NCBI GenBank assembly: GCA_022649925.1
Contig: JALCOX010000013.1
Location: 1 to 35,131, forward strand
DNA from: Bifidobacteriaceae bacterium
GTDB taxonomy: Bacteria > Actinomycetota > Actinomycetes > Actinomycetales > Bifidobacteriaceae
Direction of reading: 5' to 3'
Length of the DNA stretch: 35,131 nt
The translations under genes were made by a program, and so were the position numbers. How positions within the stretch are numbered: the stretch's first letter is position 1; each line of letters starts with the position of its first letter. The notes below the pieces were generated by a model. The model was not told the origin of the DNA. It ran no database searches and was given only the letters and a program-made list of their open reading frames with translations. Positions 153 to 35,131 of the stretch are shown here, piece by piece.

Positions 153-1283
153 TTAAACACTTCGGAACTCATTTTTGAGCACATTTTGAGCGCATTTTAT
201 TTTTTCTACTTTCTTATCTATGTCGTTCGCCACTTCGTCAAGGTCAGAGTTGAAAAGGTCGGCATAGGTATCGAGTGTCATGGCTGCGGACTCATGGCCG
301 AACATGAGCTGGATCTGCTTCACGTTAGCCCCACTGCTGACGGCGATGGAAGCGGCCGTATGTCGCAGGTCGTGGGGTGGTAGCAATGGCAGACCTGCCT
401 CCTTGAGCGCGTGCTTGTACCATCCCTTTGCGGAAGGTCCCACGCTCTGCGGCCGCAGGGGCTTGCCGCTCGGATCAGTGAACACCAGGTCACCCGGTGC
501 CTTCCTCTCGCACTGCTTCACGAGCGCGTTGAGCGCGATCAGCGCCACGGGAACATCACGGTATTTATCGCTCTTCGGAGTCACGGTGTCGCGCCCCGCG
601 TCCGATACGGTGAGATTCTCCACGATGCGTAGCCTCCGCTTCTCGACGAGCACATTCTCGACCCTGAGTGCCGACAGCTCACCCCATCTCAATCCGCAGA
701 AGCAGATCGTGAGAATGATGGCGCGTCGGGACTCGTCGACAGTACCGGCAAGCATCAGCACCTGCTCGATCGTGAGGTACTTATGGGCCTTCTTTACCTT
801 CTTAGGCTGGGCGATACGCTCGGTGGGATTGACCTTGATTCTCTGATCGTCGATAGCGGATTCGATGATTCCCTTTAGCAGCCCGTAGTTGCGCTTGACG
901 ACGGTGGCCGACTTGTCCTTCGCTTGCTCCGAGACCCATTCCTGCACTTCGCTGTGCTTAATTGAGGAGAGCGAACGCTTCCCCCACTTCGGCTCGACAT
1001 GGTTGCGCCATGCCGCCTCATTACTTCTCCACGTACTTGGCTTCCATATGGGCTTCTTGGACTTAACCCACTTTCCTCCATATTCCCCGACCGTTATCTT
1101 ACCGTCGGAGGGATTCACGAAGGTTCCCTCGCTCAGAGCGGTGGTGACATATTTTGCCGCCCAGTCGGCGGCATCGCGCTTGAGCCTGAAACCGCGCTTG
1201 TAGGTGCTTGTGTGGTCAGGCTTGCGGTATCTGACCGCGTATCGCGTGCCCTTCTTGGTCTCATAGGACTCTATCGATGCCAC
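153..1283 (-). CDS. int: Tyrosine-family phage integrase
   Basis: This 376-residue site-specific recombinase catalyses attP x attB integration and, with Xis, excision. An N-terminal arm-binding-like region (about 1-55) is followed by a SAM-like core-binding domain (about 65-160) and the catalytic domain. The catalytic set is visible: Arg199 (GLRWGEL), Lys237 (TPKSDK), His304 and Arg307 (HDLRHT), His330 (GHES) and Tyr340 (DTYADLF). GTG at 1283 was chosen because an AGGAG lies 8 bases upstream; the in-frame GTG at 1292 overlaps that AGGAG and is less likely. The gene reads toward the left attachment repeat, its stop being 27 bases from it, and its last codons overlap the tandem TTTTGAGC boxes. 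An imperfect palindrome just upstream (1299-1329) may regulate it. The assignment is firm. Confidence 0.97.
   Translation of the reverse strand: MASIESYETKKGTRYAVRYRKPDHTSTYKRGFRLKRDAADWAAKYVTTALSEGTFVNPSDGKITVGEYGGKWVKSKKPIWKPSTWRSNEAAWRNHVEPKWGKRSLSSIKHSEVQEWVSEQAKDKSATVVKRNYGLLKGIIESAIDDQRIKVNPTERIAQPKKVKKAHKYLTIEQVLMLAGTVDESRRAIILTICFCGLRWGELSALRVENVLVEKRRLRIVENLTVSDAGRDTVTPKSDKYRDVPVALIALNALVKQCERKAPGDLVFTDPSGKPLRPQSVGPSAKGWYKHALKEAGLPLLPPHDLRHTAASIAVSSGANVKQIQLMFGHESAAMTLDTYADLFNSDLDEVANDIDKKVEKIKCAQNVLKNEFRSV
167..194 (+). other. Putative integrase arm-type sites, left end
   Basis: Two contiguous 11-bp direct repeats, TTTTGAGCACA (173-183) and TTTTGAGCGCA (184-194), match the pair at the right end of the prophage in the same orientation. 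Bases 167-178 (ACTCATTTTTGA) are also the exact inverse of window bases 1-12. Paired short direct repeats flanking the core are typical arm-binding sites of tyrosine integrases. These lie inside the 3' end of the integrase gene. The binding role is inferred. Confidence 0.55.
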
Positions 1284-1298
1284 TTTTCGCACTCCTAG

Positions 1299-29054: not shown

Positions 29055-30194
29055 ATGTACTCAGTCACTGAGGAATACCTGGCCGCTCTTAATACGACGC
29101 ATACAACCAGTGCTACAGCAATCGCCACACCAGTTTCCGGGGCGGCGGTGACGCTGCAGATTGTCTCCGGCAGTGTCACCGCCACGTATCAGCAGGGCAC
29201 GCGCCGCACCGCAGCATTGGAATGTTATGCGGTCGGATCCGCAGGCGGCAAATCGATCCCACCCCAACAGGTAATAACCCTGCTCAAAAATCCCGGCACC
29301 CGCGTCACCGTGCAGGCTGGAATCGGCACTAGTCGTATGACAGAGGTGCTCATACCAATGTGTACGGGTAGACCCACTGACCCCCAGTGGATCGTAGGAG
29401 AGGGAACATTGTCCCTCTCCGTCACCGACGACTGGTGGCGCGTCAGCCAGGGTAGGTTCACCACCACGTGGGCTCCCACAAAGGGGATGCGACGAGTTGA
29501 TGCTGTTAAACAACTCATGCTGCAGGTCGCCCCAAAAGCGAAAACTAGTATCACTGCTACTGACACGGGCACTATTAGTGTTGCTGGTGATTGGGGTGAG
29601 AACCGAGATAGCGCGATCAATACGATCTGCACGGACGGTGGATTCGACGCCTATTTCAACCGATCCGGCACTATCGTTATCGAGGACTCGAAAACAACTA
29701 GTGATCCTGTTCGTTGGACGATGAAAGCAGGCGACGGCGGCGTGCTCGTTGACGCCACCACTGGCGTAGAGGAGTCAAAACTCTATAACACTGTCGTCGT
29801 CAAACCATCCGGAACCGACGACAAACAAAAATGGACTCCACAAGTCGCTAAACTCTCCTCTGGTCCGCGCGCACCCGCCACACTCGGTGTCACAATCCCC
29901 TATTTCGTCGCCTCCCCTACAGCTAAAGACTCCGCCGCCGCCATGAAGATTGCGAAGGCGCGCCTCGATTTCGTTACCGGTACAGCCGAAACACTCGACA
30001 CCACAGCTATCGCAAACCCTGCACTCGACGAAGGTGATGTGATTCAGGCAATCGTGCCTGGTGACACGTATTGGCAGGAGTCAGCGACCTCGTGGAAATA
30101 CTACGTGGATTCAATCTCATGGGATCTCATCAACGGATCTATGAGTCTCAAAGCCAGAAACGAGGGGGCGGTGAGTGACGATGACGCAAGCTGA
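29055..30194 (+). CDS. Tail hub/baseplate protein (DUF5047-like)
   Basis: This 379-residue protein starts MYSVTEEYLAALNTTHTT. It has the layout of actinophage DUF5047-type minor tail proteins, with a hub-like domain (GSVTATYQQGTRRTAALECYAVG) and a later segment NTICTDGGFDAYFNRSGTIVIED seen in Tal-like hub proteins. It sits between the Dit-like and receptor-binding genes and probably forms the tail-tip hub. Start 2 bp after the previous stop. Confidence 0.75.
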   Translation: MYSVTEEYLAALNTTHTTSATAIATPVSGAAVTLQIVSGSVTATYQQGTRRTAALECYAVGSAGGKSIPPQQVITLLKNPGTRVTVQAGIGTSRMTEVLIPMCTGRPTDPQWIVGEGTLSLSVTDDWWRVSQGRFTTTWAPTKGMRRVDAVKQLMLQVAPKAKTSITATDTGTISVAGDWGENRDSAINTICTDGGFDAYFNRSGTIVIEDSKTTSDPVRWTMKAGDGGVLVDATTGVEESKLYNTVVVKPSGTDDKQKWTPQVAKLSSGPRAPATLGVTIPYFVASPTAKDSAAAMKIAKARLDFVTGTAETLDTTAIANPALDEGDVIQAIVPGDTYWQESATSWKYYVDSISWDLINGSMSLKARNEGAVSDDDAS

Positions 30195-30414
30195 TGTAGT
30201 CGAATTAGCGAGTCTCCTCCGCTCGCCCTCCTCCGCAACCTCTGTAACCGCACGATTTGGCACAGTGAAAACCGTGTCACCAGTCTTTGCCGCCTGTGAG
30301 GGCGTCGATTTCGAGTGCCGTGCAATCAGTGGACAAACTCTCACTGTCGGCGCGTCCTGCGTAATTCTCACACTCGGTATCGGCACCACTCCTATCCTCA
30401 TCCAACTCGTCTGA
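30181..30414 (+). CDS. Small baseplate-associated protein
   Basis: A 77-residue beta-rich protein (TARFGTVKTVSPVFAACEG, VDFECRAISG, GASCVILTLGIGTTPILIQLV) starts inside the end of the hub gene and ends 11 bp before the receptor-binding gene. It looks like a small OB-type barrel. ATG 30181 or an in-frame GTG at 30175 may be used; the GAGGGGGCGGTGAG run upstream serves either. Confidence 0.65.
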   Translation: MTQADVVELASLLRSPSSATSVTARFGTVKTVSPVFAACEGVDFECRAISGQTLTVGASCVILTLGIGTTPILIQLV

Positions 30415-30425
30415 AAGGCAATATC

Positions 30426-30932
30426 ATGGCATCAATCGGCGCACATAAACTCCCAGTCCCTGCATCCTCAGCAGACCCCAACATCCCCTCCGACCTGACA
30501 AAACTCGCCACCGCAGTAGACTCTGCCCTAACGAGTGTCGCCTCTACGGCCGCATCCGATACCAAATCCGTGCGGGATTCTCTATCCCAGACGGGCACGT
30601 TGACCCCAGTCAGTGGCTGGAAGGCCTATCAGCCGATGAACGCACAGGTTCTGGGCAAGCGGTGTTTTTTGGCTGGTGCTGTGCAACGAACGAGTGCCAC
30701 ATTCACTGCAACTGCGTGGGATCCCAAGGACGTCGCCAAGGTCAGTCCTGCGCCCACGCAACGCTTCGATTTTGCTGTTCCAACAAACGCTCCAGGGTCG
30801 AACGGCATCGCCAATATTAGGATTGGTACGGACGGAGTCGTGTATGTGATGAATACTCACTCGGACAAGATGGAAATTACCCAAAATGAGTCCTGGTTCA
30901 GCCTCGCAGGAATCAATTATCAGATCAAATAG
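30426..30932 (+). CDS. Receptor-binding tail protein, expressed version
   Basis: This 168-residue protein has a constant N-terminus (1-50, mostly helical, PSDLTKLATAVDSALTSVAS) that would attach to the tail tip. The recombination-site-encoded residues DSLSQT (51-56) follow, then a beta-rich variable C-terminus (57-168) ending NESWFSLAGINYQIK. The C-terminus shares a layout with the silent cassette on the other strand (NIRIGTDGVVYV versus NIQINPDGTITV; both end in an aromatic-rich strand). AAAGG precedes the ATG by about 9 bases. It is called a receptor-binding protein from position and from the inversion system built into it. Confidence 0.82.
   Translation: MASIGAHKLPVPASSADPNIPSDLTKLATAVDSALTSVASTAASDTKSVRDSLSQTGTLTPVSGWKAYQPMNAQVLGKRCFLAGAVQRTSATFTATAWDPKDVAKVSPAPTQRFDFAVPTNAPGSNGIANIRIGTDGVVYVMNTHSDKMEITQNESWFSLAGINYQIK
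30575..30593 (+). repeat. Left inversion site
   Basis: GGATTCTCTATCCCAGACG. It includes the dyad GGAT-TCTCT-ATCC (GGGAT/ATCCC with the flanking base), which suits two recombinase half-sites around a short crossover. It encodes DSLSQT within the receptor-binding gene. Confidence 0.9.
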
Positions 30933-30939
30933 CCGATGG

Positions 30940-31293
30940 TCAGTTGATACTCCACCATGCGCCATCGAGAACAATATACGGGTTGGCAGTAGAGCTTGTT
31001 CCACCAGGCTCGCCTTTGACAGTAATAGTTCCGTCAGGGTTGATCTGGATGTTCGCTCGGTTTGCTGACGACCCGTTTACTGTTACGTACGTGGCTTCAC
31101 TAGGTCGGTAACCCGTGGGTATCGTGCCGAACGGTTTCTCACCGTTTTTCACGGTGCCACTACCTTTTCGATGGGATACACCGCGTGCAAAAACAATGTT
31201 GCCCATCCGCATGATTGCAGGCGCGTGACCAAACGACTCAGCCTGGTAATTGCTGCCGTAACCGATAGTTTTCCACGTCTGGGATAGAGAATC
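30940..31293 (-). pseudogene. Silent alternative C-terminus of the receptor-binding protein
   Basis: This promoterless, startless frame of 117 codons opens at DSLSQTWKTIGYG, immediately after an in-frame TAG that lies at the inversion site, and ends DGAWWSIN. It is not a decayed gene: after inversion it would be fused in frame to residues 1-50 of the tail protein, producing a 167-residue variant. An internal ATG at 31212 can mislead gene callers. The domain is beta-rich and shares spacing with the expressed C-terminus but little identity, consistent with a different receptor specificity. Confidence 0.88.
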
Positions 31294-31294
31294 C
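31276..31294 (-). repeat. Right inversion site
   Basis: Exact reverse complement of 30575-30593. On the minus strand it encodes the same DSLSQT at the head of the silent cassette. Its last base on the plus strand is also part of the recombinase stop codon. Confidence 0.9.
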
Positions 31295-32154
31295 TATCCG
31301 GTGATGAGAGCATTAAATTTTCTCTGAGCCTCAGTGATCACGCTCAGATCGGGGTGCAGATAGTGGGCAGCCGTGGTCTCGATACTGGCGTGGCCGAGAC
31401 AACGAGATACGACACTGATATCAACCCCAGATTTGAGTGCGAGCGTGGCCCACGTATGACGCAGAGACTCAGGTGGAACATACGGCAATTTGTGTATCTG
31501 ACACCATGTCTTATAACGTCTGGCAACCTGCGGCGGTGTGAGTGTTCCAGTGAGTCTGCCCCTCTGATGCTGTTTGAGCTGTTTTAATCGTTTTCGCGCA
31601 TAGGCAGGCAATATGAGGTCACGTCGGCTGAGTGTGGTTTTGGGTGGCACGATGGCCTCGTGCCCGTTAATCCATTGGATTCCCCGTTCGATGCGCACGA
31701 TCCCACTGCGTAGATTCATATCCTGCCACTCCAGTCCCATCGCCTCCTCAGGACGTAAACCCAGACTCACACTCACGATTACCCATGCCTCGAGATTCCA
31801 CCCCCAGCAGCCACGCAGGAGCGCACGTACCCCATTTGTGTCAAGCACAGGTGCCTCGTAATGCGGCACCTGCGGAAGATCGATCAATAACGCAGTTACA
31901 TCTGTACTGGTAATACCCTCACGCCGTGCCCGTCGTAGCATCGCGCGTATCAGCGCCCACGCTTTCCGGGCAGCCCCCGGTCGCTCAATCCCGTCCAACC
32001 ACGACTGCACCGCCTGCGAGTCGACCGCATCCATATCCAACGAGGCTAGTGGCACACAATGCAACCTCCATGCACTCTCATACCCAATCCTCGTACACTC
32101 ACGCAATCGTGAACACGAGTCGTAATAATGCAGCCAGTAATCACTCAATAACAT
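31294..32154 (-). CDS. Tyrosine recombinase, tail-protein invertase (Rin-like)
   Basis: This 286-residue recombinase has an N-terminal core-binding domain (1-90) and a catalytic domain with Arg134 (GLRPEEA), Lys172 (PPKTT), Arg232 (ESLRHT), His255 (GHAS) and Tyr265 (AAHYLHP). The first His of the usual HxxR box is Glu229 here. Its stop codon touches the right inversion site, and it lies inside the tail-lysis region far from the attachment site, so inversion of the tail cassette is its likely task. ATG 32154 has GGAG five bases upstream; a longer frame to 32229 lacks a ribosome site. Confidence 0.9.
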   Translation of the reverse strand: MLLSDYWLHYYDSCSRLRECTRIGYESAWRLHCVPLASLDMDAVDSQAVQSWLDGIERPGAARKAWALIRAMLRRARREGITSTDVTALLIDLPQVPHYEAPVLDTNGVRALLRGCWGWNLEAWVIVSVSLGLRPEEAMGLEWQDMNLRSGIVRIERGIQWINGHEAIVPPKTTLSRRDLILPAYARKRLKQLKQHQRGRLTGTLTPPQVARRYKTWCQIHKLPYVPPESLRHTWATLALKSGVDISVVSRCLGHASIETTAAHYLHPDLSVITEAQRKFNALITG

Positions 32155-34604: not shown

Positions 34605-34730
34605 TCAAAAATGAGTGAAACCGAGTCGAATTGGAAAGTATCGAAAAGTCAATATTTGCAATGCCTCAAGTAATATTGTCTTAGTGCCACTGAGACCCGT
34701 TTTAGGGTTCGAGTCTCTCATCGCCCACCT
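34605..34730. repeat. Right copy of the attachment repeat (attR)
   Basis: Perfect copy of window 1-126. Phage sequence is on its left and host sequence on its right. The tRNA-3'-end-like part is at its right edge (about 34706-34729), where the chromosome resumes. Confidence 0.85.
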
Positions 34731-34845: not shown

Positions 34846-35131
34846 TCAGCGCTCCTGGCGACCCTTACCAAAAGACACCAGACGAACGCCATTCCAATTC
34901 TCGCTGACCGTGACCGGAGTCGTTACGTTCATCCCGGCGTTTTTCGCAGCATTTTGAATGGTAAAGGAGCTCGCAGCACCGTCACGACCTGGCTTGGGCG
35001 TGACAATCCAGAAAGGTGCATCCTCGCCACGTGTGGCCTCGGCGTCGACAATGGTATCGGCGAGTTCGTCCTCGTCGTCACCGTCACGCCACCACAGCAC
35101 AACGCCATCCGCGACGCCGTCATAATCTTCG
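34846..35131 (-). CDS. Host DUF3052 protein, 3' part (cut by window edge)
   Basis: This frame is open to the right edge, so the N-terminus is missing. The visible residues (YDGVADGVVLWWRDGDDEDE, then FWIVTPKPGRDG, AAKNAGM and NWNGVRLV) follow the pattern of actinobacterial DUF3052 proteins (LWWRD, W-LLTPK-GR-G, AGL, W-GTRL). Function is not established. It is the main evidence for an actinobacterial host and marks the chromosomal side of attR. Confidence 0.8.
   Translation of the reverse strand, partial: EDYDGVADGVVLWWRDGDDEDELADTIVDAEATRGEDAPFWIVTPKPGRDGAASSFTIQNAAKNAGMNVTTPVTVSENWNGVRLVSFGKGRQER

Follow-up and report, generated by a model that had tools for sequence, protein, structure and literature searches.

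The stretch of DNA analyzed here (35,131 nucleotides; hereafter, the window) contains, after a run of tail genes and before the holin gene, a putative receptor-binding protein (RBP) gene that converges with the gene of a tyrosine recombinase (Table 1). As assembled, the RBP consists of 168 amino acids and is laid out as 50 codons, a site that is read as DSLSQT, and about 112 residues from a cassette, of which there are two, A and B. The site is one arm of the inverted repeat GGATTCTCTATCCCAGACG, the two arms of which are complementary at 19 of 19 positions and are separated by 682 nt, and the 720-bp segment flanked by these arms (30575-31294) holds the two cassettes as convergent, in-frame C-termini. 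The frame of the silent cassette is open from the repeat onward, and the TAG directly before it terminates the recombinase gene (31294-31296; LITG*DSLSQT) and shares its last base with the right repeat, of which that base is the first. Inversion of the segment in silico yields a full-length protein of 167 amino acids, again with DSLSQT at the junction. The original prediction had described this arrangement, down to the perfect repeats around the segment, the TAG just ahead of the open silent frame and the two protein lengths with their common junction, and all these points were reproduced by arm complementarity, frame analysis and in silico inversion.

Table 1 Features of the two-site Rin locus and its surroundings in the window
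Feature	Position	Strand	Comment
Prophage's own integrase	153..1292	-	Tyrosine recombinase; N-terminal SAM-like domain, weak arm-domain match
Tail protein phrog_1887	29055..30194	+	Conserved tail module
Small tail-module gene	30175..30414	+	Directly upstream of RBP; 79 aa; 50% identical and syntenic in L107
Constant N-terminal part of RBP	30426..30575	+	50 codons; ORF from ATG 30426
Left crossover site (rix-type)	30575..30593	+	Encodes hinge DSLSQT; core CCGTGCGGGAT-TCTCT-ATCCCAGACGG
Cassette A	30594..30932	+	C-terminus expressed as assembled; 112 codons + stop TAG
Cassette B	30937..31275	-	Silent C-terminus, in frame from right crossover site
Right crossover site	31276..31294	-	Inverted copy; outermost base is last base of recombinase stop
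Rin-type tyrosine recombinase	31294..32154	-	286 aa; R134, K172, R232, H255, Y265
DUF3052 gene	34846-35100	-	Beyond right copy of 126-bp repeat

The 19-bp pair is the longest among the perfect inverted repeats within 1 kb in the window; in 60 length-matched random sequences (first order), the longest reached 16. With up to two mismatches allowed, the 16-bp core of the site occurs twice in the 1.7-Mb assembly, both times at this locus. Scans of the locus for promoters and terminators gave signals at chance level, with no clear promoter.

An exact 126-bp direct repeat (1-126 and 34605-34730) is a candidate for attL/attR; together with the left-end integrase and a gene beyond the right copy that looks chromosomal, it suggests that the element is an integrated prophage.

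The recombinase matches the Phage_integrase family (Pfam PF00589, E=1.4e-16) and comprises only the core-binding and catalytic domains, the N-terminal arm-binding domain being absent. Among solved structures, the profile of its family is closest to XerD (2.1e-15), and this and the Pfam match set it apart from the serine recombinases of the Cin/Gin/Min/Hin type. The closest sequences, 46-57% identical, come from Bifidobacterium genomes and phages, including phages PMBT6 (53%) and ctl617 (52%), B. pluvialisilvae (53-54%), B. catulorum (46%), and many other prophages. A 67-sequence tree places the window recombinase, on a long branch (0.66), together with 49 recombinases of Bifidobacterium and its phages in one clade (SH-aLRT 99), that of Rin, the recombinase of the shufflon described in the Bifidobacterium breve/longum dnaJ2 prophages Bb423phi1, Bl157phi1, and Bl30698phi1 (PMC6109161); the window integrase falls outside this clade, among other integrases. 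Arg134, Lys172, Arg232, His255, and Tyr265 are invariant across the 50 Rin members. The His-II residue usual in tyrosine recombinases is missing throughout the clade, the corresponding position being Arg in 43 of the 50 and Glu229 in the window; the +9 position of the window recombinase is His rather than Tyr, and both this His and the Glu are rare in the set. The tyrosine recombinase at the right repeat, with its stop inside the repeat, is distinct from the integrase, as anticipated from the DNA alone, and the kinship with the Rin systems of bifidobacterial prophages that had also been proposed holds, given the clade, the rix-type site and the in-frame cassettes. The window host falls in the family of the Bifidobacterium genomes but in a separate genus. 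Across 189 genomes of this family, Rin was found in three genera, that of the window host being represented by this genome only, and none of 396 genomes sampled from the order contained another Rin.

Among the relatives, a rix-type site that follows TTCnSTAWCCC or a variant of it is found at a distance of 0-14 bp from the stop codon of the recombinase gene, and at least one partner in inverted orientation sits within the RBP gene. Across 146 distinct sites, the consensus reads TTC-N-S-TA-W-CCC, with G at position -3 in 99%; the window site TTCTCTATCCC matches TTCnSTAWCCC and shares the conserved position beside the recombinase stop. The frame encoding DS(L/V)(S/T) is open for at least 80 codons at 112 of 120 distinct sites, compared with 1 and 22 for the other two frames. 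Arms that flank an asymmetric spacer are usual among tyrosine recombinases. When the left window site is laid out as in Table 1, its arms agree at 9 of 11 positions, and over all sites, symmetry reaches 0.47 at the chosen center versus 0.22-0.30 at shifted centers; we infer the exact positions of strand exchange at the window sites.

Evidence that this family inverts in nature comes from pairs of near-identical loci. The GenBank records MK932884 and MH444512 of phage PMBT6 show at least 99.9% identity in the stretch compared, apart from one inversion, an exact 435-bp flip between copies of TAGCTTTCCGTAA beside the recombinase and within the silent cassette array (L022, 5336-5770; L023, 5382-5816; ~30792-31226 in both records). 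The expressed RBP is identical in the two records, so this inversion is a shuffle of silent cassettes. In other pairs, the recombinase and the constant part of the RBP are 100% identical (L071/L072 and L065/L073) or 99.2-99.9% identical (L045/L046 and L062/L063) and the expressed C-terminus differs, most breakpoints lying no more than about 12 bp from the site centers. From these pairs and the PMBT6 inversion, we conclude that the family inverts; the window copy presumably flips as well. The loci L065 and L073 are two Rin copies on one 83.7-kb IMG/VR contig, with identical recombinases and different expressed C-termini.

For the window locus itself, no copy in the opposite orientation and no second strain was found in the IMG/VR searches, in which patterns for the recombinase, the RBP and a tail protein gave zero matches or none that was confirmed, and a single-protein scan of genome contigs for relatives yielded no match. 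Six IMG/VR matches to GATTCYCTATCCCAGAC (L027-L032) were rejected as relatives: the Rin recombinase is absent from all of them, and they were therefore taken as chance matches.

For cassette B, phmmer (5.8e-6) and a subsequent profile search showed kinship with other Rin cassettes, and its AlphaFold model, built with 15 related cassettes in the alignment, has a pLDDT of 82. The model resembles the heads of phage RBPs, namely, Listeria phage PSA gp15 (Z 12.1) and the lactococcal phages TP901-1 (Z 10.4) and p2 (Z 10.0), which supports cassette B as a predicted RBP head of the TP901-1 type. Cassette A shows a weak match to the minor tail protein phrog_3285 (0.014-0.015), and the full RBP as assembled, which carries cassette A, was modeled without an alignment at a pLDDT of 37; PDB sequence searches with either cassette returned nothing useful. 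From its place in the locus, cassette A would also be a head, and the two heads would presumably differ in receptor. The identification of the gene product as an RBP, already made in the original prediction, is upheld by the predicted fold of cassette B and by a gene order typical of RBPs.

Taken together, the anatomy of the locus and the family evidence support well a recombinase-driven two-state switch of the RBP, and we are highly confident that the locus constitutes, in the tail-tip region of a prophage, an invertible Rin module with two sites. At each of these inverted sites, the recombinase would bind the short arms (GGGAT/ATCCC core) on either side of the asymmetric spacer, and strand exchange at both would flip the 720-bp segment, such that the 50-residue constant N-terminus would be joined to cassette A in one orientation (168 aa) and to cassette B in the other (167 aa). 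Because the site doubles as codons for the hinge, both junctions would remain in frame. The cassette not in use would be parked past the stop of the recombinase gene, its end facing that of the expressed cassette. Given two orientations and two heads, the prophage population should yield particles with either receptor-binding head.

Some features of the locus could instead be those of a former Rin inverter that is now locked, for example, with the recombinase inactive or unexpressed: the rare Glu229 and +9 His, the long branch of the recombinase, the unseen opposite orientation and the lack of a clear promoter-like signal. Decay, however, would be expected to break the sites, the frames or the recombinase first, and here the sites are still identical at 19 of 19 positions, both cassettes are open in frame and the recombinase is full length with its R, K, R, H, and Y residues intact; we consider a relic quite unlikely. 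A role for the recombinase at the attachment site, as a second integrase or an excisionase, with the inverted repeat as a by-product, is extremely improbable. A separate integrase lies beside the candidate att repeat, the recombinase groups with Rin and not with integrases, and Rin recombinases are located between tail and lysis genes by site arrays of varying order, all of which outweighs the "integrase" label in PHROGs and the naming of relatives as integrases in database records.

The other question is what the switch would change. Given that cassette A has no confident match, the module might alter a function other than host recognition, such as that of a tail-assembly or virion-stability protein. 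Against this stand the resemblance of the predicted fold of cassette B to the RBP heads of PSA, TP901-1, and p2 (Z 9.6-12.1) and the position of the gene between the tail genes and holin, which is that of the RBP genes of the relatives, and such a function appears very unlikely to us. In the preferred reading, that of a switch between two receptor-binding heads, the kind of switch is one already known, that is, Rin, and what distinguishes the window locus is its compactness and its unusual scaffold.

As in the published Rin system (PMC6109161), an XerD-like tyrosine recombinase without an arm-type domain adjoins the RBP gene, short asymmetric sites (published by Mavrich et al. as rix, TTCCCTAACCC) open each variable C-terminus, and a constant N-terminus is combined with a C-terminus of about 100 residues with a TP901-1-type head. 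The published loci, however, have several cassettes compared with two cassettes and two sites in the window, an 11-bp rather than a 19-bp repeat, and a constant part of 168 rather than 50 residues, the window part having no detectable homology to the collected Rin constant parts. The Rin-type loci of PMBT6, ctl617, B. pluvialisilvae, B. catulorum, B. saguini, B. platyrrhinorum, B. vansinderenii, and B. mongoliense share with the window a recombinase ~46-57% identical, a site beside the stop codon and, mostly, a DS(L/V)(S/T) hinge, but differ in their RBP N-termini and mostly have more cassettes; none is a close nucleotide relative of the window locus. A Rin-like shufflon has also been reported in an Eggerthella prophage (PMC8778435).

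With two sites and two cassettes, compared with the more than two variable cassettes of a shufflon, the window locus is a two-site Rin rather than a shufflon. It had been proposed as a minimal two-state form, perhaps the simplest version of such modules; the two-state layout is confirmed, but the locus is not a one-off. The clade includes at least seven other two-site Rin loci (L048, L053, L054, L089 with L098/L099, L095, L034/L042, and L037/L077), so that the two-state layout with a dedicated recombinase recurs among Rin loci; since other members of the clade also have two sites, we do not count more than two cassettes as defining the Rin recombinase family. In the literature searched, no description of a two-state Rin with its own recombinase was found.

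A second inversion locus, of ~500 bp and without an adjacent recombinase, has been described in the tRNA-Met prophages 689b-1 and Bb423phi2 (PMC6109161). As in the window, its inversion has two states and takes in both the 3' terminus of a structural gene and a small gene next to it, and its 8-bp site CAGGGTTA corresponds, on the other strand (TAACCCTG), to the 3' half of many rix sites. Judging by name and locus tags, Bb423phi2 appears to have the same host strain as Bb423phi1, which carries Rin; action of Rin on the Bb423phi2 site in trans is therefore conceivable. The Cin, Gin, and Min systems of phages P1, Mu, and p15B follow the same logic, with inversion exchanging the variable end of an adsorption protein, but employ a serine recombinase, whereas the window system employs a tyrosine recombinase.

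The constant part of Rin-controlled RBPs is usually about 163-168 residues long in many loci, and the 50-residue N-terminus of the window has no relative among the other collected Rin loci. A comparable scaffold occurs in L107, a prophage whose host belongs to a different genus of the family and whose tail genes follow the same order (40% identity of the tape measure protein and 33%, 52%, and 50% for the subsequent genes). Its RBP (172 aa) has a fixed C-terminus, and the first 35 residues are 60% identical to the window RBP; neither a Rin recombinase nor an inverted repeat of the window kind was found in this prophage. The simplest reading suggested by these sequences is that the window phage gained the Rin module on a tail protein that previously lacked one, loss of the module in L107 being the alternative. 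If gain is the correct reading, the comparison suggests that a tail protein previously devoid of a switch can acquire one. More generally, Rin might be a portable cassette grafted onto unrelated tail proteins, such that a recombinase, two sites and a second head are added to a small RBP and the crossover site itself would provide the new protein hinge; we regard the case for and against this view as evenly balanced. If true, the window carries a self-contained two-state switch on a scaffold unseen in the other collected Rin loci.

Being self-contained, with two sites and a perfect repeat, the locus is a convenient minimal system for studying how a tyrosine recombinase that lacks the arm domain achieves inversion without deletion. 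It is also suited to asking whether bifidobacterial phages, for which plaques are hard to obtain, adsorb differently once their RBP heads are switched.

A further peculiarity of the locus is that the silent cassette shares the frame of the recombinase, immediately after its TAG (31260-31330, minus strand), so that read-through would yield a recombinase-cassette fusion; this arrangement is probably a by-product of the shared site.
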